A stretch of 64,000 bases of DNA, from contig JAINUG010000197.1 of assembly GCA_029706075.1 (NCBI GenBank), forward strand, positions 1,093,009 to 1,157,008. The letters run 5' to 3'. Positions 12,524-64,000 of the stretch are shown here, in pieces. The position numbers and the translations under genes are program-made. The stretch's first letter is position 1, and each line of letters starts with the position of its first letter. The stretch comes from Aldrovandia affinis (Eukaryota > Chordata > Actinopteri > Notacanthiformes > Halosauridae). Under the pieces are notes generated by a model that was not told the DNA's origin, did not search any database, and worked only from the letters and a program-made list of their open reading frames with translations.

Positions 12524-14478
12524 GACTTCTCATCCTTCTGATGACTTCTCATCCTTCTTTCACGAGAAGGTTGAGGTCAGTCGCAACTCCTTCCCCCCAA
12601 CCTTTCCCTCTCCCATCCCGCTACCTAAACCTCCCCTCCTCTGTCCTCCTTCTCACCCCTCCCTGACTCGGACATCCTTCAACTAGTTCTCTCCCACCGT
12701 CCCACCACCTGCCCTCTTGATCCCATTCCTTCCCCCCTCTTCCAGTCCATTGCTATGGACATCCTCCCCTTTGTCTCCAATGTCATTAACTCCTCTCTGT
12801 CCTCTGGCTCTGTCCCCTCCTCCCTCAAATGCGCTCAGGTTGTCCCCCTCCTCAAAAAACCCTCTCTGAGTCCTGCTGTCATCTCTAACTACCGACCTGT
12901 CTCTCTCCTCCCATTCCTCTCCAAAACGTTAGAGCGGGCTGTCTATAATCAACTGTCTGCTCATCTCTCACAGAACGACCTGCTTGATCCTAACCAATCT
13001 GGGTTCAGAGCAGGCCACTCCACAGAGACTGCTCTCCTTGCGGTCACTGAGGCTCTTCACGTCGCGAAGTCCCGATCCCTTAGCTCCGTCCTCCTCCTCC
13101 TCGACCTGTCGGCGGCATTCGACACCGTGGACCACCGGATCCTGCTCTCATCTCTCGTCGAGATGGGAATCTCTGGATCTGCATTGACATGGTTCGAGTC
13201 CTACCTGGCTGACCGGTCCTACCAGGTGGCCTGGAGAGGATCCCTCTCCTCTCCCCGCACCCTCTCTACCGGTGTCCCGCAGGGTTCGGTGCTAGGCCCT
13301 GTCCTATTTTCTCTGTACACCAAGTCACTTGGCTCTGTTATTTCTGCTCATGGTTTTTCCTATCACTGTTATGCTGATGACACTCAACTCTTTCTCTCCT
13401 ACCCTCCATCTGATACCCAGGTCCCGGCACGGATCTCTGCATGCCTGGCTGACATCTCCGCATGGATGTCCACCCACCACCTGAAGCTGAACCTGCGGAA
13501 GACAGAGCTGCTCTTCTTCCCAGCGAAGGGCTCCCCGATGATTGATGCGTCAATCACCGTGGAAGGCTCCATAGTGTCTCCGTCCCAGTCTGCCAGGAGT
13601 CTTGGGGTAACCCTGGACAACCAGCTGTGCTTCTCGAGCCATATTGCAGCGATCACTCGGACCTGCCGTTTCTCCCTCCATAACATCCGAAGGATCCGAC
13701 CGTTCCTCACCCAAGAGGCCACTCAACTCCTGGTCCAGGCCCTGGTGATCTCACGTCTGGACTACTGCAATTCCTTGCTGGTAGGCCTTCCGGCCTGTGC
13801 CATCAAGCCACTGCAACTAGTCCAGAACGCTGCTGCTCGCCTGGTGTTCAACCAGCCGAAGTTCACCCACGTCACCCCTCTACTCTCCTCTCTGCACTGG
13901 CTCCCCATCGCAGCACGCATCAGATTCAAGTCACTGGTGCTTGCTTTTCAAGCGGCCAGAGGTACTGCTCCCCCATACCTCCAGTCACTCATCATGCCCT
14001 ACACCCCGTCCAGACCCCTCCGCTCCGCCTCCGCTGGCAGACTGACTGCCCCATCCCTCCGGGCGGCTGGCAGCCGCTCCTCGCGGTCTCGCCTCTTCTC
14101 TGTCCTGGTCCCTCATTGGTGGAATGACCTCCCGCAATCGGTCAGGACTGCGGAATCACTTCCAATCCTCCGCAAGAGACTCAAAACCCACCTCTTCAGA
14201 CTCCACTACCACTGAACACTGTCCATCTAGTCAATCTGTCGTCACCACTGTTTACTTGTTCTACTCAAAAAAAAGAAAAAAAAAAAAGAAAGACCCACTA
14301 ACCTTTTCTTTCCCAATGTTACAGGTATGATATGCAGACACCTGCAATGATGTCTACTGCCGCTTTACTGCACTGATCTTGTGCGCTAACTGATTGTTCT
14401 TACCTTGTATTAATGCACATCTTGTAAGTCGCTCTGGATAAGAGTGTCTGCTAAATGCTTAAAATGTAAAATGTAAAA
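12524..14478 (+). mobile_element. L2-clade LINE, 5' truncated
   Basis: This copy contains the reverse-transcriptase region, a short 3'UTR with an A-rich patch (14269-14290) and the fish L2-type tail with GTCGCTCTGGATAAGAG..., ending in TAAAATG repeats at about 14400-14478. The endonuclease half is missing, as expected for 5' truncation. The segment before the main ORF (12545-12750) also reads as LINE-like ('SDDFSSFFHEKVE') in another frame, so at least one frameshift exists. It lies inside a minus-strand Tc1 element. Confidence 0.85.
12755..14215 (+). pseudogene. L2-type LINE reverse transcriptase (truncated ORF2)
   Basis: This 486-residue open frame is the C-terminal part of a non-LTR retrotransposon ORF2. 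Reverse-transcriptase blocks are in order: 'SNYRPVSLLPFLSKTLER' (about residues 44-61), 'GFRAGHSTETALL', block A 'LLLLDLSAAFDTVDHRIL' with the first catalytic Asp, block B 'TGVPQGSVLGPVLFSLY', and block C 'CYADDTQLF' with the YADD catalytic pair. A C-terminal 'LLSSLHWLPIAARIRFK' and 'PPYL' region typical of L2/CR1-type elements follows. The usual N-terminal apurinic endonuclease is absent and the ATG at 12755 is internal, so this is a dead-on-arrival copy despite its long intact frame. In life the protein would copy LINE RNA into DNA at a nicked target. Confidence 0.88.
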
Positions 14479-21190: not shown

Positions 21191-21423
21191 CATTAGAGGA
21201 AATAAATGATTTTTTGGATGAGACTTTTGGCAAGTCATTAAAGGTGACAGATTGTTTTCAGGTTGCTGATATTTTTTTAGATCCGTCAGCATTCTGCAAA
21301 AACTTGTTGGATTTGATGTGTTGGATGAAAAGAAAAGATTCTGTCTAAAAAAGCACGTCACTGTATTGAGGAAGAAAAGGTGAAGAAGACCAAGTAGTAA
21401 TCTTAGCAATGATAATGATCATG

Positions 21424-21593
21424 TGTAACCGGTCTTGGTTGTGCCCTGCAGCGAGTTTCGAACCGAGGGGGATCTCCGACGTGACAAGAGAGCGATTAAG
21501 CTCGCGGAGCTAAAGACTCAAGTCCCCAACTCCGGGAACTAATCGTACTCTTAATCGCAGCGGGCGCTCACGTACCAGAGCTCACCCGCTACA
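21424..21593 (-). repeat. TRIM 3' LTR (minus orientation)
   Basis: 170-bp terminal repeat. On the minus strand it starts TGTAGCGGGTGAGC and carries GGTTCGAAACTCG, which resembles a Pol III B box, about 50 nt after a weak A-box-like TAGCTCCGCGAG. Confidence 0.8.
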
Positions 21594-21674
21594 TTCTCCC
21601 CCCCGAAACTTCTGCGGCAGCAACCACGGCCCGACTGATTGACATCAGTCGTGGCATCCGAGTCACGGCACCAA

Positions 21675-21847
21675 TGTGACGGTGTTGGTTCTGCCTGCAG
21701 CGAGTTTCGAACCGAGGGGATCTCCAACGCGACAAGAGAGCGATTAAGCTCGCCGAGCTAAAGACTCAAGTCTCTAACTCCGGGAACTAATCGTACTCTT
21801 ATCCACGTCACTCCGCAGCGGGTGCTCACCAGAGCCCATCCGCTACA
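21675..21847 (-). repeat. TRIM 5' LTR (minus orientation)
   Basis: 173-bp terminal repeat, about 90% identical to its partner with small indels. It contains the same B-box-like GGTTCGAAAC. Confidence 0.8.
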
Positions 21848-21914
21848 CATGCACCACAAGGTGTACTCTTTCTACCTGTTTTCATTGTTTTATTCTTTCT
21901 TCTTCTCTATTCAC

Positions 21915-38011: not shown

Positions 38012-40289
38012 TGTCACGGTTGTTCCCCTGAACCACCACCAGATGGCGGTGTTGCGCCTTCTTTGGAGGCGGGTCAGCTGGTTCCTATTACTAATCACCT
38101 TCCTATAAATACTCGCACCTGGATTCGTTCTTTGCGAAATCGTAAGCCATTTTTACGATTTAGCCGGTAAGGTATGTAGCGTCTTTTTAAAGATACTACT
38201 CAAAGACTTACTTTAGGAACAAAGAAACTCCTTAGCTAATTTAGGACTTCTTTATGAAACCTTATTTAGGAGACCTTTCTACCGTTAGGTATTCTGTTGG
38301 TTTCTTTCAAACAGTCAAACAAGACTGTGTTTTGGGTTTTCATTTTCGTTGTTTATTTGGCTCTCCTAGCCGTTTATTATTTTGTCCAGACACCCGGTGT
38401 CGGTGGTTTATTTATTCGTTTGTTTGTGTCTTTGTGGCACTTAGTCACCCGTTGGGTGATATTTTCTGTTTTCCCCTTTTTGTTATTATTTTTCCTATTC
38501 TCTGTCATTCAGAGCTTGTGGTTAGGCTGTAGGCTTACAGTCTAACTTATCGATATCCCCGGGGTTCTGCGATTGATTCCAATCACTTAACCCACCCTTA
38601 CAGTACGATTTCGCCTAATCATGCTCCCTCATCCGTACACTCCAATGAGACGGAGAAAGAACTCGAATGGGATCCTCAGTGTGATTGGGGAGTCCCACTG
38701 GAGGAGTCCACGGCCGAGGAGATTAGTGACCTGGAATCCTTATCTTTTGATTCTTTAGAGGCAGACATGCCGTCTACGGACGATGAGCCCAATTTGTCAC
38801 GAGTTCCTAAAAGATCGGTTAGCTACTCCAGTTCCGATTCCCATAAAAAATTCGACCTGACACCATTGAGCACGAGTTTCCAAAAGATCAGGAGGGAATG
38901 GAACTCATGAGTGCGGAATGTTACTCGCTACCTCCCGGCATTCCAAAGACTTATTCAGATCTTAGCGAGGTGTTTAGTAAGCAAAGGGCTACTAAGCTAC
39001 CTCCGCACCGGCCTTATGATTGCGCTATTGAGCTTCACCCAGGCACAGTTCCCCCACGTGGATCCCTATATTCACTATCTGTACCTGAGAGTGCGGCTAT
39101 GAAGAGATACATTTCGGAATCTCTAACTAATGGTTTTATCAGGCCATCCACGTCTCCTGCTGGGGCGGGGTTCTTTTTTGTCGGAAAAAAGGATGGGGGA
39201 TTACGACCGTGTATCGATTATAGAGGGTTAAATAATATTACCATAAAGAATCGTTATCCTCTTCCACTTATGAACTCCGCGTTTGAACGTCTCCAAGGAG
39301 CGTCTATTTTTTCCAAGTTGGACCTTCGCAACGCATATAATTTGGTTCGCATCCGTCAGGGTGATGAGTGGAAAACAGCATTTAATACGCACAATGGTCA
39401 TTACGAATACCTGGTTATGCCATTCGGCCTCACGTGCGCGCCGGCTGTCTTCCAGGCGTTTGTTAATGACGTACTCAGAGAGATGTTGGAGAAATCGGTG
39501 TTCGTTTATCTTGACGACATTTTGATTTTCTCCAATTCTCTCTCTGAGCACGTGAAACACGTCAGACAGGTATTAAAATGCTTGTTAGAAGCCCAATTAT
39601 TTGTTAAAGCAGAGAAATGTGTGTTTCACGTACCTTCAGTTTCCTTTCTAGGATTCATTGTCGCAGAGGGCAGGATCCAAATGGACCCCAATAAAGTGAC
39701 TGCGGTCAAGGATTGGCCTGCTCCGGTCTCTGTAAAACAGGTGCAGCGTTTTTGGGGTTTGCAAATTTTTATAGACGGTTTATCCGCAATTTTAGTTCAG
39801 TGGTCGCGCCCATCACGGCGCTTACAAAAAGACTGTTTCTTCTCGGTTCCAATGGTCCCCTAAAGCGGAGGCAGCCTTCGCTGAACTAAAAGAAGATTCT
39901 GTTCTGAACCCATTTTAATTTCTCCCAATCCTTCATTACCTTTCATTGTAGAGGTTGACGCCTCTGAGCTAGGGGTAGGGGCTATACTGTCCCAGCGGTC
40001 GGCCATGGACCAAAAGGTTCATCCATGCGCGTATTTTCTCGGAGCCTTTCGCCTGCCGAGAGGAATTACAATGTAGGAGATCAGGAGTTATTAGCGGTTA
40101 AGATGGCGCTGGAGGAATGGCGTCATTGGCTAGGAGGGGGCGGAACATCCCTTTACGGTCTGGACGGATCATAAAAATTTAGAATACATCCAGGGGGCTC
40201 AACGTCGTAATTCGCGGCAAGCTCGATGGGCATTATTTTTTACTAGGTTTAATTTTTTGTTGACTTACCGTCCTGGTTTGATGATTGAT
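38012..40289 (+). mobile_element. Ty3/gypsy-like retrotransposon, truncated
   Basis: Begins TGTCACGGTTGTTCCCC, an LTR-type start. A TATA-like CTATAAATACT lies at about 38104-38114, within LTR-like sequence running to about 38610. A short gag-like open stretch (about 38620-38885, 'SNETEKELEWDPQCDWG') is followed directly by pol sequence, so most of gag and the protease are deleted. The 3' part of pol decays after 39740 and is cut at about 40289, where an L2 tail begins. No 3' LTR is seen. Confidence 0.8.
38898..39863 (+). pseudogene. Ty3/gypsy-like reverse transcriptase
   Basis: A 321-codon open frame covers the pre-RT and RT region. In order: '[16 protein letters not shown]', '[16 protein letters not shown]', '[20 protein letters not shown]' then '[11 protein letters not shown]', block A '[14 protein letters not shown]', '[16 protein letters not shown]', catalytic '[12 protein letters not shown]', and '[17 protein letters not shown]'. 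The frame leaves the family alignment after 'VQRFWGL', where the usual '[12 protein letters not shown]' follows in another frame. RNase H-like pieces continue to about 40280 with several frameshifts and stops. The catalytic YLDD is intact but the polyprotein is broken. The ATG used here is only the first Met in an internal segment. Confidence 0.85.
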
Positions 40290-40374
40290 CTTACCATATA
40301 TTAATGCACATCTTGTAAGTCACTCTGGATAAGAGTGTCTGCTAAATGCCAAATGTAAATGTAAATGCAAGCTG
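40290..40374 (+). mobile_element. L2 LINE 3' tail fragment
   Basis: Consists of TTAATGCACATCTTGTAAGT, then CACTCTGGATAAGAGTGTCT and AAATGTAAATG repeats. It matches the ends of the L2 copies at 12.5, 22.9 and 42.0 kb. Confidence 0.85.
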
Positions 40375-41110
40375 GATGATTAAGCAAGGAGATTGATCAA
40401 AGAGGCCAATGGCAACTATGAAGGAGCTACAGGATTTTATGTCAAAGAGTGGTCAATGGGTGCATGTGTCAACAATACAGAACACTCTCCACAATTCTGG
40501 TCTGTATGGTAGGGTGGCAAGAAAAAAGCCACTACTCAAACTCAAAATCCACATTCAGTCCCATTTGAGGTATGCAAAAAAACTATCTGAAGATTCTGAA
40601 TCCATGTGGCTAAAGGTGTTGTGGTCAGATGAAACCAAGACTGAAACCAAGAAAACCAAAATGTTTGGCTTAAATGCAAAAAATTACGTTTGGCAAAAAC
40701 CCAATACAGCACATTACCCAAAGAACACCATCCATACTGTAAAGCATGGTGGTGGCAGCATTCTGTTATGGGGGTGTTTCTCATTAGCAGGGACTGGGGC
40801 ACTTGTCAAGATAGAAGGTAAAATGGATGGAGCAAAATACAGAAGAATTATTGAGGAAAACCTGCTGCCCTATGCAAGGAAGTTCACCTTTTAGCATGAC
40901 AATGACCCAAAGCACACAGCTAAAGCAACAGTGGCGTGGCTAAAAAACAAAAAGGTGAATGTCGTTGAGTGGCCTAGTCAGAGCCCTAACCTAAATACTA
41001 TTTAAAACCTGTGGAAGGTGGACATTTTTTAAATTTCAGACTGTAAGGCAACTAAAGGTGACATTTTTGACATGGGGTGTAGACTATAAAGAGGCACTGC
41101 ATATACAGTA
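40375..41110 (+). pseudogene. Tc1-like transposase remnant
   Basis: A frame from about 40409 to 40894 (161 codons) and its in-frame continuation to about 41035 encode the catalytic half of a Tc1-like transposase. Visible are '[14 protein letters not shown]', 'VLWSDETK' with the first catalytic Asp, '[14 protein letters not shown]', '[20 protein letters not shown]', a stop, '[16 protein letters not shown]' with the second Asp, then '[14 protein letters not shown]'. The third catalytic Glu of the usual 'IENLW' is replaced by a stop codon. The N-terminal DNA-binding domain and the inverted repeats are not seen. Confidence 0.82.
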
Positions 41111-42024: not shown

Positions 42025-42315
42025 ACCTCTTCAGACTCCACTACCACTGAACTCTGTCCATCTAGCTAAATTGTCTTCACCACTGTTTACTTGTTCAACA
42101 CTATACTCCAAAAAAAGAAAACTAACACTAACCTTTTCCTTCCCGGTGTTACAGGTATGGTACGCAGATGCCTGCAATGATGTCTATTGCTGTATTACTG
42201 CACTGATCTCGTGCACTAACTATGATTGATCCTACCATGTATTAATGCACATCTTGTAAGTCGCTCTGGATAAGAGCGTCTGCTAAATGCTTAAAATGTA
42301 AAAATGTAAATGTAA
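42024..42315 (+). mobile_element. L2 LINE 3' fragment
   Basis: Matches the L2 copy at 12.5 kb from its terminal coding sequence (CCACCTCTTCAGACTCCACT) through the 3'UTR and GTCGCTCTGGATAAGAGCG tail. Confidence 0.88.
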
Positions 42316-58284: not shown

Positions 58285-58505
58285 CCAGCCCTCTGGTTAC
58301 AAAACTCAATCCAGAGCCCGAAACCTCTGGCATGTGCAAATCTGTGAGCCGATACGGCTAAATTGAGCTATTCTTCTCTGAATTCCTGGGTTTTAAAATA
58401 TATTTTTTCATTCCCTCTGGAAAATGTCCATTGTGAAGGGCTGTGTGAAACCTGTTTGTAAATGTTGCTGTACAAAATTATGGATCGATTGATTGATTGA
58501 CTAAC

Positions 58506-58696
58506 CTTCTGAGAGGCCAGGTACTCCATGCCTCTGGCCACCTGGTAGGCACAGGAGACCAGGTCCTTGAAGGTGAGCTGCTCATCTGGGATCTTGCAAG
58601 TGTCAAAGGAGTAGTCCATGCCAGGGGGTCTCCGGGCTCGCAGGTACTCCCGTAGGTTCCCCTTGGAGGCATACTCCACCAGCACATACAGGGGCC
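58506..58696 (-). CDS. fgfr3: FGF receptor 3, hinge and kinase insert exon
   Basis: 191 bp, matching the mammalian exon. It encodes '[20 protein letters not shown]' (hinge and helix D), then the kinase insert '[20 protein letters not shown]', then '[20 protein letters not shown]'. 'SFDTCK' and 'CAYQVARGM' are FGFR3-type wording; FGFR2 has other residues there. Acceptor accag/G, donor AAG/gttag. Confidence 0.96.
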
Positions 58697-59668
58697 CTGG
58701 TGACGGACAGCTGGAGCTCAATACACGTCATCCATCCAACAAACCAACAGTCCCGTAGACCTCTGCACGGTCAACTGAATACTCTCTCAATCCTAAAGCA
58801 GAACATTGTCTTTGTACTCTTTAAAGGTTTGTTAATGAACAATAACTAAGTTTACATGATGAATATTTCAGCAATCGGAATAAATTAATACTGAATGAGC
58901 AACCCGAATGAACTCTTTACATGTCTGGCAGTTAGATGAGCTATCGAGGTATATGTTTATGTTACATTACATATACATAATTTACGTTACTCTGAATTAC
59001 GCAGTATCTCTTGAGTAGCTTCAACACTGCAACAACTTGTAAAAATGCATTGTTTGCTTTGCATACTTCTTCTGTTGTTATGCTATAGAATTAGACAGGC
59101 ACAGCCAGATATGATCATACTTCAAGTGCTTAACTGTAGACAGCAGGAAGAAGAGGCTTTCGTAACAAGGATTTATACAATTCCTCCTTAAAAACTTTAC
59201 AACCATTGAGGTGTTTGATTATGTCTAATTTTCAAGCAGAAAATGTTCATTCCATCTAATGGCAGAATATTAGGCTGCATGTAAATGCAGTAATTGTCAT
59301 CCTTTAGCATCTGGTCTGACAATTCTGATTAGTTCCAGTGCATTAAAAATCTGAGCTTGATCTATGTGTCATCATCCACAAGGAAGAGGAGGAACAGAAA
59401 CATTAAGAGTAATATATCCCTCTACCACACAAGAGTAGCGGTTGTATGCATCCTAAAGCTGGGTATCAAATCAGAGATTATTTCAAATCTTTGTCTACAT
59501 ATTAAAAACATGAGATTTCAGTTTAGTTTATCAGTTTAAGTTTATCAACGGCAGGGAGGGAATTGCAACCAAAAGGGCAACTGTATATACATTATTATGG
59601 CAGTTCTAAGGAGGCATTATTGTATTTGCACTGTTGTGAATGTACTATTAACTGTATATACATGATTA

Positions 59669-59905
<237 letters not shown>

Positions 59906-60131
59906 CTAGAGCAAACTATAAGGTGGTTTATTTTATGCTGGAATTCGTTCTTACATGTTTTCATCCTTACATGTTTATCTTTTTTTGCCATGGCTTTGAC
60001 CATGTATTTTAGACAATTAATTATTTGGTAAATAAGAGATCTCGCTCCACCTCTGAAGCTATCCAACCACTTATATAGGTTGGTCATTACAAGAATCAGT
60101 TTGTTATTTTTGTTTTTCTACTCACACAGAC

Positions 60132-60253
60132 CTTTCAGCATTTTGACGGCAACTGTAAGAGGCTTGTTGGGTTTCTCCTTGTCTATCCCAATTGCCTCTG
60201 CCATGACCACCTGCCCGAAGCAGCCCTCTCCCAATGGCTTTCCCAGCGTCAGC
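60132..60253 (-). CDS. fgfr3: FGF receptor 3, glycine-rich loop and catalytic Lys exon
   Basis: 122 bp, matching the mammalian exon when the first donor is used. It encodes '[20 protein letters not shown]', then '[20 protein letters not shown]', with the G-x-G-x-x-G nucleotide loop and the VAVK catalytic Lys. The donor at 60131-60130 is a weak gtctgt. Six bases on, a much stronger gtgagt (60125-60120) would extend the exon in frame. The lengths and phase support the first site as the family-typical end. Confidence 0.95.
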
Positions 60254-60452
60254 CTGCACAACACAGCATACAACATTAACCTAACACAGCACACAACATG
60301 ACAGAGCCACTAATCTTTTCTATTTTAACCTTCAACCTTTCAACCTCACAAGCCTGTACGAAGACTAGGCTTCCTGTTTCTAGATTTGATTTTAAAATAG
60401 AAATCATTAGTTTTTTTAATTTTGTGATCAGAGTTGCCAGTTGGAGCCTCAC

Positions 60453-60598
60453 CTGGTCCGGGGAAACTCCCATTTTGGGTCTGCTGGGAGCTCCAGCTCC
60501 GACACATTGGCCAGCATTGGTCCATCACTCGATGACAGACGGGCAATCCTGACCAATGGGGTGTTGGAATTCATGGACGAGTTGGACTCCAAAGACAC
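60453..60598 (-). CDS. fgfr3: FGF receptor 3, juxtamembrane exon
   Basis: 146 bp, matching the mammalian exon. It encodes '[20 protein letters not shown]' then '[20 protein letters not shown]' and 'PKWEFPRTR', the juxtamembrane region that precedes the kinase and in FGF receptors binds the FRS2 adaptor together with the preceding residues. It starts with VS, as in FGFR3, rather than VT. Acceptor ctgcag-type cag/G, donor CCAG/gtgagg. Confidence 0.96.
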
Positions 60599-61289
60599 CT
60601 GCTTGAGTGCAAAACAAAACAAAAAGTGTTATAGACTCTGAATGAGGGGACATACACTTAGCCCAGAGGCATATAGGAGATGGTGGTGGGCGGGTTCAAG
60701 GGCTGCGTCATGCTACGTACACTTTACACACCTGACTAGATGATCTCTGTGAGAATGGTGGCATTACTTGATGCCCACATTCTGATATCATTTGGCAATG
60801 TCTGTGAAAATGGTGGCTTTACTTGATGGCTCTGCTCTGATGGGGATGCTTTGCTCAACTTGCTCATACCTGCAAGCAGCTCATAGCTAGAGGTGGGAAA
60901 CATGGTCACAAAAGGCAGAGACGGAGGCAGGGACGTCTCTGCAGCAGGTGTTGAGGGGCCTTAAACTATCAATGTTGGCCATTTTGAGGCCAGTCCCCAG
61001 GGGTCTTACTCCTTCTGTTCTTCTCTTCCTCCTCCTCTATTTGTCTTTCTGCTTACCCTGTTAGATAACCTCTGCACCTTCTTTACCATTGCACCTTCTT
61101 GCTTATTGCTTACTCATCTCTTACTGCTGGGATTCTTACACAAACCTGTCCACTTACCACAGCTCCTCACTTCACACAGGGAGGGTGCGATGACTGGATA
61201 ACCTAGCACAGTCAACAATATCTACAATATTCACCAATAGCCCCCACCCACCATCCATAAACACACCATAGAGACATGCGTACAGATAC

Positions 61290-61420
<131 letters not shown>

Positions 61421-61854
61421 TAAACCCTGCTTCATCAACCCTGTGATTTTATACAGAATTTCAACATATTGTTTTACAGAAAAATGTCATTCTAATTGAA
61501 GAATGGTCATCAGGTTGACTCCAGTGCTTCTGATAACAGTCAGATATGTAGTGTTTTAAGTACATACTGCATGGGAGAAAATGTAGAGATTGGAGAGGGC
61601 ATTAGGTCTGATTACTGATTATTAGAAGCCAATTTATAGGTGAAGTACAGTGTCCTACAATGTGATTGCTTCGAGTGAAAATTAATTCATGATCCTTTTA
61701 GAGTACGTGGGTGCAGAACCTTTATAATATGTGATTTCAACAAAATCAAATAGGGAGAGAGGAAAAGAATAATGTCTGCAGGAACAAGGGAGGTAGAGAG
61801 GGACAGAAAAGGTCATCTCTCATCTGAAGGAATCTTGTATCTACTTTCTGTTAC

Positions 61855-62033
61855 CTGTCTCTTCAGGGGAAACTTAGAGAGTTTCTGCACAGGTGGAGTG
61901 GGCAGGGTCTTTTGGCTGGACATCCGCATGCGGCAGAGGATGATGATGACCACCGTGAGGATGAAGAGCACGCATCCCGTCACGTAGATCAGGATGTCAG
62001 CGTAGTCGTCCTCCTTGTCACTGCCGTCAATGG
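61855..62033 (-). CDS. fgfr3: FGF receptor 3, transmembrane exon
   Basis: 179 bp. It encodes an acidic stalk 'AIDGSDKEDDYAD', a single membrane-spanning helix 'ILIYVTGCVLFILTVVIIIL', the stop-transfer 'CRMRM', then 'QKLSKFPLKRQ'. The 'FPLKRQ' ending matches FGFR3. Positions equivalent to the two human glycines mutated in skeletal dysplasia are Asp and Val here by my alignment. Acceptor gctag/C, donor CAG/gtaaca. Confidence 0.95.
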
Positions 62034-63406
62034 CTAGCGAGGGGTAAAAGGTGAACGGGGACAATCTGGTTAACGTTGTGAAAAACCCCCAAAACAACAA
62101 CAAGACTAGACATTTAACATATTTAAGCATTTTATTTGTTTAATAGTTTGTTTGGGAAAACTTGGCATTTTCAAACAAAGGGAAATAGCTGTGATTCCTA
62201 TTTGATTATACGGAAGAGGAATTTTCCATGATAACTCAAAACCATCTATTTACTTAGAAGCTTATATCTAAAAGACTATTTGATTACTGATTTTATCGAT
62301 CAAGCATTTCCCATAATTCCCATAATCCCTCATGATTATCAATTTTTACTGTGCCTGTCTTAGATCTGTCCTTGCCAATGCTACACATTCGTGGTGGATG
62401 TGACCCCCATCCTTTCATTGTAAAGTGTTCTGAGATTGTGAAAGGCGCTATATACACACAATCCATTATTATTCGTATTAATAGTGAAATCTAACTGTGC
62501 TCAGTCTGTGTGGCACATTTAGAGATGTTTGCTGAGCTGGAGACGTGATGTCACTGTAGTCCACAGCTGCACAGACTTAGCTAATAATCCCAGCTGTGGT
62601 TATAATATGTCTTTCCTTGCAGAACGTCTCAACAGTCTGGCAATGCTGAAACAACAAAACTCCTCTCACACGTCGCCAAAACTGCTGCACAGGGAACAAT
62701 ACAGAGGACAGGCGACAGTGCTATTTTTATATATGTTTAAAATACATCTGTCATCAGGTACATCTGCCAAAAATATTGAATGTGGTTAATAAAAGGTAGC
62801 TTTGAGCAGATAAAAGATGGACAGAACAAAGTGTGTAAGTGATATGTCCTTGAATTTCTACACATTTCTGTAAAAAGAACCAGGGCATTATTGAGACAAG
62901 AACTCTGGCTCAGTTTAGAGTCACATTCTGATTGAGAACACATTTGTCACAGAGACAGCGAAGCTAGACCTCTCCTGATGCAGCTCACAGGCTTTAAGCT
63001 TGGCTACCGAGTGAAACGATGGTACAGCACATATTCCCCCTGTTTGAAAATGACTTTACCCTCTATTCATTTGTTCTCAAATCCACTCACTGTGGCTCAC
63101 ATGTCAGGTACATGCGTGGTGCCAGAATAAGTTAGCTTCAGATGGGCTATTGATTTTACACATCCACCTTGCCCTGACTGTCGGTCATGAGAAAACATGA
63201 CCGCTGGGGCTTTGATTTACTTTAACCAGTATTATTCACATGCGATGTTATCTCAGGAATGACTTTGATTTACTGTTTCAACCATTCACATGCACTGTTT
63301 CATCATCACATCAAAACAACAGCAAAAACAGTATAAAAGTGACAGGCAGTGACCCAACACACAGAAGAAGGACCCGAGGAGAGTGGTTTAGAGAGAGGGA
63401 CAGTAC

Positions 63407-63551
63407 CTGGCAGCACAGTCAGCCATGCTGAGTGGTAAGCATAACCAATAGAGTTCCCAGCTAGGCAGGTGTACTCCCCAGCATCCTCAAAAGACACGTT
63501 TGTCAAGAACAGAATCTCTAGCTCCTTATCCGTGGTATTTATGCCTGCCGT
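63407..63551 (-). CDS. fgfr3: FGF receptor 3, Ig domain 3 exon IIIc
   Basis: 145 bp, the length of the mammalian IIIc exon. It encodes '[20 protein letters not shown]' then '[20 protein letters not shown]' and 'SAWLTVLP', the second half of Ig3 in the mesenchymal isoform that sets FGF ligand preference. The 'NTTDKE' and 'CLAGNSIG' wording identifies IIIc rather than IIIb. Acceptor ccag/A, donor CCAG/gtactg. The IIIb and IIIa exons are not present up to the right edge of the window. Confidence 0.96.
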
Positions 63552-64000
63552 CTGGGACACAGGGAAAATGAGGGGACAGGGAGGGAGAGGAATGATAGAG
63601 AGCAGGAGAGAGAGAGAGAGGGGAGGATAGGATATTTCATAAGCCTTGAATCCCAAGAGGAAATGCACAAAACACAAAAGGAGCACCCGGGAAAAGTACA
63701 AATCCACCGACGAGGGGAAAAAAAGGGCAGTGATGAAGTTGAGATTCCCGCCACACAGTGTAGCCCCCTACGAAGTCACCCGCTCCCCATTGTCATGGAA
63801 ATAATCTCAGATCCCCAGGAGCTGGCAGCAAAGCAGTGAACGCCCCCTTCCACCAGGACTGTGCTGTGCGTGCTCACGACTCTTTGTGCAGTTGGTGTTG
63901 TTTAAAGGGTAGTGTGTGGACCAATGGCCAGCTATGAACGTGGTCTTAAAAAGTCCCAATGAAAGGAGAACCAGTGACAGGATGAGATAAAGGGATGGTG
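63552..64000. other. fgfr3 intron sequence to window edge
   Basis: Contains a GA-rich patch (63590-63625). No IIIb exon motif was seen on the minus strand. Confidence 0.6.

Follow-up and report, generated by a model that had tools for sequence, protein, structure and literature searches.

Relation to described elements

Helenus (TRIMp3), with families such as LTR-11_DR of zebrafish and LTR1_LCh/LTR2_LCh of coelacanth, consists of short non-coding LTR elements with tRNA-like LTRs and 4-bp target-site duplications. In the sections of Kojima 2024 (PMC10886601) on which we draw, Helenus TRIMs are reported from coelacanth, sturgeon, paddlefish and Ostariophysi, those of vertebrates being primed by tRNA-His, -Leu or -Lys, and Gypsy is proposed as the helper of the animal families. 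Given this publication from fish and coelacanth, vertebrate TRIMs are not new, and the initial annotation of the locus analyzed here, which held them to be seldom described in vertebrates, was out of date in this respect. According to the same sections, the Cassandra TRIMs of plants are also non-coding and carry a small-RNA-gene promoter in their LTRs, but this promoter comes from 5S rRNA. PbTRIM of the red harvester ant, in the part of PMC3532108 considered here, is a non-autonomous animal TRIM but represents an insect family. Bipartite primer-binding sites are known in Ty1 and Ty3; in the portion of PMC5371799 that covers them, two separate stretches of element RNA form the primer site for one tRNA, with a small internal loop between them in Ty1. 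Ty3 differs from the element described below in using initiator Met tRNA and in having the second part of the site ~4,800 nt away, whereas here the second site is known from sequence only and common descent is not claimed.

The element under study lies in a window of 64,000 bp (C1079:1093009-1157008) of a 1.22-Gb host genome which, judging from its content, looks like that of a ray-finned fish. Its tRNA-like LTR sequence, tRNA-His priming and 4-bp duplications appear to match Helenus, as judged from described features. The duplications, of the length found in the animal families, are present in the window element and in 25 of 39 fetched relatives, and the tRNA-His primer is identified by complementarity; tRNA-derived LTR sequence with boxes A and B is recognized by similarity and not by the Rfam tRNA model, with box A weak by itself. 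The kind of element is thus already known. New relative to those sections of PMC10886601, where we have not seen them described for Helenus, are a helper candidate in the host genome, a second tRNA site, copies with an extended primer-site complement and a mosaic copy. Taken together, the locus is probably a Helenus-type TRIM copy with a Gypsy-helped, tRNA-His-primed cycle, and a mosaic born from two co-packaged RNAs.

Structure of the element

The element is well below ~1 kb, has direct LTRs and no coding sequence, and its interior is bounded by a primer site on one side and a polypurine tract on the other (Table 1). In the sense direction, it reads CATG; the 5' LTR, TGTAGCGG...CCGTCACA; one T; the primer site; the hairpin; GGTTGCTGC; the polypurine tract; the 3' LTR, TGTAGCGG...GGTTACA; and CATG. 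The boundaries and CATG flanks placed by the initial annotation proved exact, and the interior, the primer site one base from the 5' LTR, the polypurine tract, the duplication and the hairpin that it described are all present. Its direct repeats of ~170 bp were likewise recovered, but they are not near-identical (152 of 163 ungapped columns identical, seven gap events) because two sub-families supply them. The primer site had been called an exact complement of tRNA-His; this holds for the letters that we take to be the human tRNA-His 3' end (18/18), but against the two host tRNA-His genes scored the complementarity is 17/18. At up to three mismatches, the primer site is unique in the window, and none of 100 shuffles contains one. 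This shuffle test, together with a large genome-wide family, rules out a chance repeat. No further copy of the element was found within the window, and no tRNA gene was found there by ARAGORN with default settings; relaxing its thresholds produced inconsistent predictions, which were disregarded.

Table 1. Features of the Helenus-type element (window coordinates)
Feature	Position	Strand	Basis
Whole TRIM (Helenus-type), 424 bp, without coding capacity	21424..21847	-	structure; family of similar-length copies
Target-site duplication CATG, one side	21420..21423	.	uninterrupted empty site in 17/18 LINE stretches
Target-site duplication CATG, other side	21848..21851	.	the same 17/18 empty-site LINE stretches
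5' LTR, 173 bp, sub-family B, ends GTCACA	21675..21847	-	type B at 8/8 diagnostic sites
3' LTR, 170 bp, sub-family A, ends GTTACA	21424..21593	-	type A at 7/7 diagnostic sites
Interior, 81 bp, sub-family A	21594..21674	-	type A at 4/4 diagnostic sites
Primer-binding site, 18 nt, complementary to tRNA-His 3' end	21656..21673	-	complementarity
Polypurine tract GGGGGGGAGAA, 11 nt, abuts 3' LTR	21594..21604	-	sequence; G-rich tract likewise placed in 39 fetched copies
Interior hairpin, 8-bp stem, 4-nt loop	21632..21651	-	folding; pairing across family interiors
Second tRNA-His-complementary site CCGTGGTTGCTGC, 12/13	21617..21629	-	sequence; copies with extended tRNA complement
Exact core GGTTGCTGC of second tRNA-His-complementary site	21617-21625	-	sequence
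Box-B-like GGTTCGAAAC, 5' LTR	21704..21713	-	sequence
Box-A-like sequence, 5' LTR, 47 nt before box B	21749..21760	-	weak by itself
Box-B-like GGTTCGAAAC, 3' LTR	21455..21464	-	sequence

A dispersed family in the host genome

A search of the host genome for full-length copies, proposed with the initial annotation, revealed a large family of this short structure, with 4-bp duplications. Comparison of the element with the genome gave 43 scored matches from 3,410 first-look candidates, the other copies matching at 84-93%. A 17-nt LTR core occurs in 1,314 exact copies and the 18-nt primer site in 431, compared with none for either reversed pattern; the excess of LTR cores over primer sites suggests many solo LTRs. 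The 39 fetched relatives, selected by their match to the whole short element, are 423-452 bp long, and all 39 have short interiors of 63-83 bp (81 bp in 33). TG...CA ends and perfect 4-bp duplications were found in 25 of them, the duplications having been sought within eight bases of each end, such that a small number may be fortuitous. Among the remaining 14 are tandem units, truncated copies and copies with diverged ends. Over 26 sites (these 25 copies and the window), the target is palindromic, with TG-CATG-CA as the best letters; the first base of the duplicated tetramer is C or T in 24 sites and the last is A or G in 25. We read this palindrome as an integrase signature.

The possibility that copies of the element always extend into a coding interior was looked for, and such extension was absent among the copies examined. 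Origin of the window element as a local deletion derivative was rejected because many copies share its structure. Outside the host, searches by LTR pattern revealed no relatives among viral contigs or among the genomes of bacteria and archaea, and blastn against plasmids and phages was likewise negative. The one primer-site match in a viral contig (L001) is not accompanied by a tRNA gene and was taken for chance.

Tandem arrays are reported for LTR-11_DR in the portion of PMC10886601 used here, and tandem units were also seen in the host family: three loci (L025, L035, L048) contain tandem Helenus units with shared LTRs, recognized from overlapping matches. At C1202:946940-949447, ten primer sites in the C form (see below) stand in a row, mostly ~251 bp apart; on these coordinates, the row is probably a tandem array of Helenus units.

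Insertion into a LINE-like repeat

The repeat that received the insertion is LINE-like, as recognized by eye in the frames on either side. When the flanks are joined at one CATG, they have 25 matches in the host genome, two of which are the window itself. Seventeen of the 18 other loci read at the junction run through uninterrupted; in one of the 17, the C of CATG is replaced by T, and small indels occur in other places in several. The sole exception (L093) has a 7-base gap at the junction. The empty sites thus define the element boundaries as 21424 and 21847; a shift of the empty-site boundaries away from these positions was specifically looked for, and all 17 fit. With a dispersed family, 4-bp duplications and empty sites, the element is therefore a real TRIM.

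tRNA-like sequence in the LTRs

Both window LTRs contain the box-B-like GGTTCGAAAC, which is otherwise absent from the window and follows a box-A-like sequence at a distance of 47-48 nt. With what we take to be the letters of human tRNA-Val-CAC as the query, the window LTRs score 31 and 30, values reached by 2 and 3 of 1,454 background windows, respectively. In 54 of 60 5' LTRs, the tRNA-Val similarity exceeds the 99th percentile of these background windows. An antisense outlier was also observed: the 3' LTR scores 33 against tRNA-His, above the sense scores, and 2 of 500 shuffles do so.

The usual stop of pol III is TTTT. An ordinary pol II TRIM, lacking a pol III promoter, would account for the near absence of this stop (2 of 60 5' LTRs, and absent from the window element), for box A being not specially conserved (73rd among 163 windows, in an analysis of conservation and TTTT that left out 6 of 65 rows), for the joint score of boxes A and B being matched by 66 and 63 of 1,000 shuffles, which is not significant alone, and for the lack of Rfam tRNA model matches in the window element and in those of 40 further loci (six of these elements being partial); the sole match in these 40 loci, L057:420-477, lies outside the element. 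We nevertheless judge this explanation unlikely, given that box B ranks 10th of the 163 windows in conservation and that the tRNA-Val similarity belongs to the sense strand, whose median score is 33 compared with 19 for the antisense strand; furthermore, tRNA-Val-CAC is also the yardstick for fish Helenus in a figure legend of PMC10886601, in the part of that paper considered here. We take the tRNA-like LTR sequence as real but degraded, and its use by pol III as putative: box A and box B in the LTR would drive the synthesis of a short RNA.

A candidate Gypsy helper

The primer-site census covered 69 sites at 68 loci, from 100 listed of the 431 counted, each assigned by a score rule and reading by eye. 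Sixty sites belong to Helenus, five to a repeat carrying a Helenus piece and two to Gypsy; one is joined to an RT-like piece, and one is unexplained. Three more listed sites (C588, C680, C691) lie ~1.1 kb downstream of a Gypsy LTR start, the spacing expected for the helper-candidate Gypsy.

The initial annotation had suggested looking for an autonomous, tRNA-His-primed Gypsy with similar LTR ends, and one was found on contig C58. Its LTRs, of 1,072 and 1,076 bp, are 99.5% identical; it starts with TGTAACGG, ends with CCGTCACA, and has the T spacer, the identical 18-nt primer site and the duplication TAAG. A G-rich tract stands four bases ahead of its 3' LTR. Its frames, in pieces, encode a reverse transcriptase (RVT_1, 4e-33), RNase H, an integrase zinc-binding domain and rve; a match to aspartyl protease is below the Pfam cut-off, and the gag piece has no Pfam match. 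The 193-bp start of the Gypsy LTR has 40 scored matches in the host genome. Five further copies, chosen for having two LTRs at the right spacing (C588 has three LTR starts), are flanked by TAAG, TATA, TTTA, CTCG and CACA, of which TATA and CACA are in simple repeats and prove less. Thus, 4-bp duplications are present in all six Gypsy copies examined, each with a pyrimidine first and a purine last.

Could the Helenus family be an internal deletion derivative of one autonomous Gypsy with common LTRs, as in many plant TRIMs? The Gypsy and Helenus have the same primer site, the same T spacer and 4-bp duplications, and their LTR ends are similar, all of which is compatible with such an origin, but the LTR bodies (1,072 vs 173 bp) show no likeness beyond that of shuffles, 140 and 103 of 200 of which reach the score, and the interiors are no more alike than shuffles either. 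Moreover, the short interiors found throughout the 39 copies (chosen, as noted, by whole-element match) and the fact that the 69 primer sites read did not include any autonomous element whose coding interior is enclosed by Helenus LTRs both argue against it, and we consider this origin very improbable. With signals alone shared, the dissimilarity of LTRs and interiors fits the argument, made in the part of PMC10886601 cited here, that extensive LTR sequence in common between such TRIMs and a pol II helper is not to be expected. The second tRNA-His site is absent from the Gypsy leader.

Mobilization by some other tRNA-His-primed element, either retrovirus-like or a different Gypsy, deserves consideration given that 69 of 431 primer sites were read and that one of these (L135) is joined, by eye, to an RT-like coding piece. 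We think it improbable, however, as the Gypsy found is recent and multi-copy and matches Helenus in ends, spacer, primer site, duplication length and Y..R target pattern. This recent Gypsy, sharing the primer site, LTR ends, 4-bp duplications and target pattern, is likely the helper of the Helenus family. The earlier proposal of a non-coding TRIM mobilized in trans is supported by the dispersed short family, the 4-bp duplications, the empty sites and the tRNA-His-primed Gypsy with matching ends. A single genome thus provides a concrete candidate, defined by primer site, LTR ends, duplication length and target pattern, for the helper of vertebrate Helenus, which had hitherto only been proposed. 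Under the proposed cycle, Helenus RNA would be packaged in particles made by the Gypsy, whose reverse transcriptase would copy this RNA from an annealed tRNA-His, with the polypurine tract priming the plus strand; the Gypsy integrase would then insert the DNA at TG-CATG-CA-like sites with 4-bp duplications.

Five loci of the census (L067, L106, L107, L125, L130) were considered as possible autonomous relatives and rejected. They appear instead to be a repeat with inverted ends TACCGTATTGACCCGAATATAAGAC (seen in L067) that carries the Helenus primer site and part of the interior, and resembles a DNA transposon with a captured piece of Helenus; in 4 kb at one such repeat (L143), no reverse transcriptase was found in the ORFs by eye. 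Another locus, L128 (C347:1715327-1715644), has an exact primer site followed by its own partial inverted copy, outside any recognized element. A diverged Helenus-like stretch (L100:4596-5066) lies within a copy of the candidate helper Gypsy family (on C136), with CATG at one edge and the Gypsy frame ending inside.

Interior hairpin, second tRNA-His site and primer-site variants

Conservation of the interior was analyzed over 63 distinct sequences; 10 loci had been set aside beforehand as non-Helenus or duplicates, 23 of 97 loci were dropped as identical, and 12 of 75 distinct interiors were left out with lengths outside 78-83. Across these interiors, 97.2% of the cells of the hairpin are paired. 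For a two-hairpin structure, there are 26 two-sided cells, as many as in none of 500 shuffles; 24 of the 26 represent one G-C to A-U exchange separating the sub-families, and the number of pairs with a two-sided change, two, is reached by 164 of 500 shuffles. The covariation therefore reflects few independent events. When folded as a single sequence, the interior is unremarkable (z -0.95).

Past the primer site, CCGTGGTTGCTGC agrees at 12 of 13 positions with the complement of host tRNA-His sequence that lies beyond the last 18 nt at the 3' end of the tRNA. The match includes an exact 9-nt run, which 6 of 1,000 shuffles reach, and GGTTGCTGC is present in 56 of the 63 interiors. During priming, tRNA-His would anneal to the 18-nt primer site and probably also to this second site ~30 nt downstream, brought close by the conserved hairpin.

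A search with tRNA-His identified two Helenus copies, L154 (C2056:4292500-4292680) and L155 (C2200:495840-496000), in which the 18-nt primer site is replaced by a 39-nt complement of tRNA-His (CCA and 36 nt), with one mismatch in L155. Both rejoin the interior three bases after GGTTGCTGC, and this shared junction may reflect one event. In the T-stem, the C and G of the six host tRNA-His genes read (L141, L142, L156, L157, L159, L160) are replaced by T and A in the two copies; given this difference, they may derive from an older tRNA. The modified A58 is the usual stop for reverse transcriptase in a tRNA primer. The likeliest reading of the two copies is that plus-strand DNA was copied past the A58 stop and caught by the second site. 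If so, they would be natural snapshots of reverse transcriptase proceeding beyond its normal stop in the tRNA primer.

The primer site itself has two forms. That of the window is the T form (431 exact copies), which differs at one of 18 positions from the two host tRNA-His genes scored; the C form, fully complementary to those two genes (18/18), has 125 exact copies, with none in the control, and by eye occurs in 13 of the 39 fetched copies. The two forms would be snapshots of primer sites following changes in host tRNA genes.

We tentatively suggest that, within its 81 bases, the interior offers tRNA-His a compact docking platform with two sites, made up of the primer site, the hairpin and the second site, the last of which may also catch run-on plus-strand DNA; L154 and L155 would then be fossils of an older primer tRNA, and the window LTRs a record of transfer between RNAs.

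A mosaic of two sub-families

The window copy is a mosaic of two sub-families. Its 5' LTR is nearest to copies ending in GTCACA (97.1%) and its 3' LTR to copies ending in GTTACA (98.3%). At sites that distinguish 13 pure A from 15 pure B copies (28 of the 39 copies used), the window is of type B at all eight in the 5' LTR and of type A at all 11 thereafter, that is, four in the interior and seven in the 3' LTR. The switch lies between element positions 170 and 236, and probably before position 193, given the A-type bases seen by eye after the primer site. The two LTRs of the window copy diverge by K of 0.071, compared with a median of 0.023 in the 39 copies. End types of the two LTRs match in 32 of these copies, and the remaining seven have other pairs, mostly one-base variants; a GTCACA 5' LTR with a GTTACA 3' LTR was found in none of the 39 and in none of 20 more that were scored (20 of 26).

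The empty sites show that the flanks belong together, making exchange between loci unlikely. The mosaic could also have arisen after insertion, by gene conversion of the 5' LTR of an otherwise ordinary type-A copy, the donor being a type-B LTR (such as a solo LTR) located elsewhere. Conversion would also stop at the LTR edge, as homology ends there, and the many solo LTRs suggested by the excess of LTR cores would offer donors; against it, the tract must span the whole LTR, all eight diagnostic sites from position 25 to 170 being of type B, and the window's combination of ends is missing from the 39 copies, seven of which have other end pairs, and from the 20. We therefore regard conversion as possible but somewhat doubtful.

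The mosaic is most likely explained by plus-strand DNA having passed from one cDNA to another at the primer site, a transfer that predicts the observed pattern. The window copy would most likely have been born in a particle with two different Helenus RNAs, where, at the primer site, a plus-strand strong-stop DNA of the B type switched to a minus strand of the A type, yielding unlike LTRs. The mosaic may thus record two parasite RNAs packaged in one particle, and warns that LTR-LTR divergence can overstate the age of a copy.

Other features of the window

Apart from the element, the window contains exons of a receptor tyrosine kinase with an Ig domain (58371-63767, minus strand; Pfam kinase 2.5e-11, I-set 1.8e-5), FGFR-like by eye. 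A reverse transcriptase fragment that appears Gypsy-like by eye is encoded at 38847-39860 on the plus strand (RVT_1, 4e-37). LINE copies, showing 3' ends of the UnaL2 type and an RT frame (RVT_1, 6e-38), are located at 12629-14464, 40303-40355 and 42244-42296, and a piece of a Tc1-like transposase at 40397-40891.
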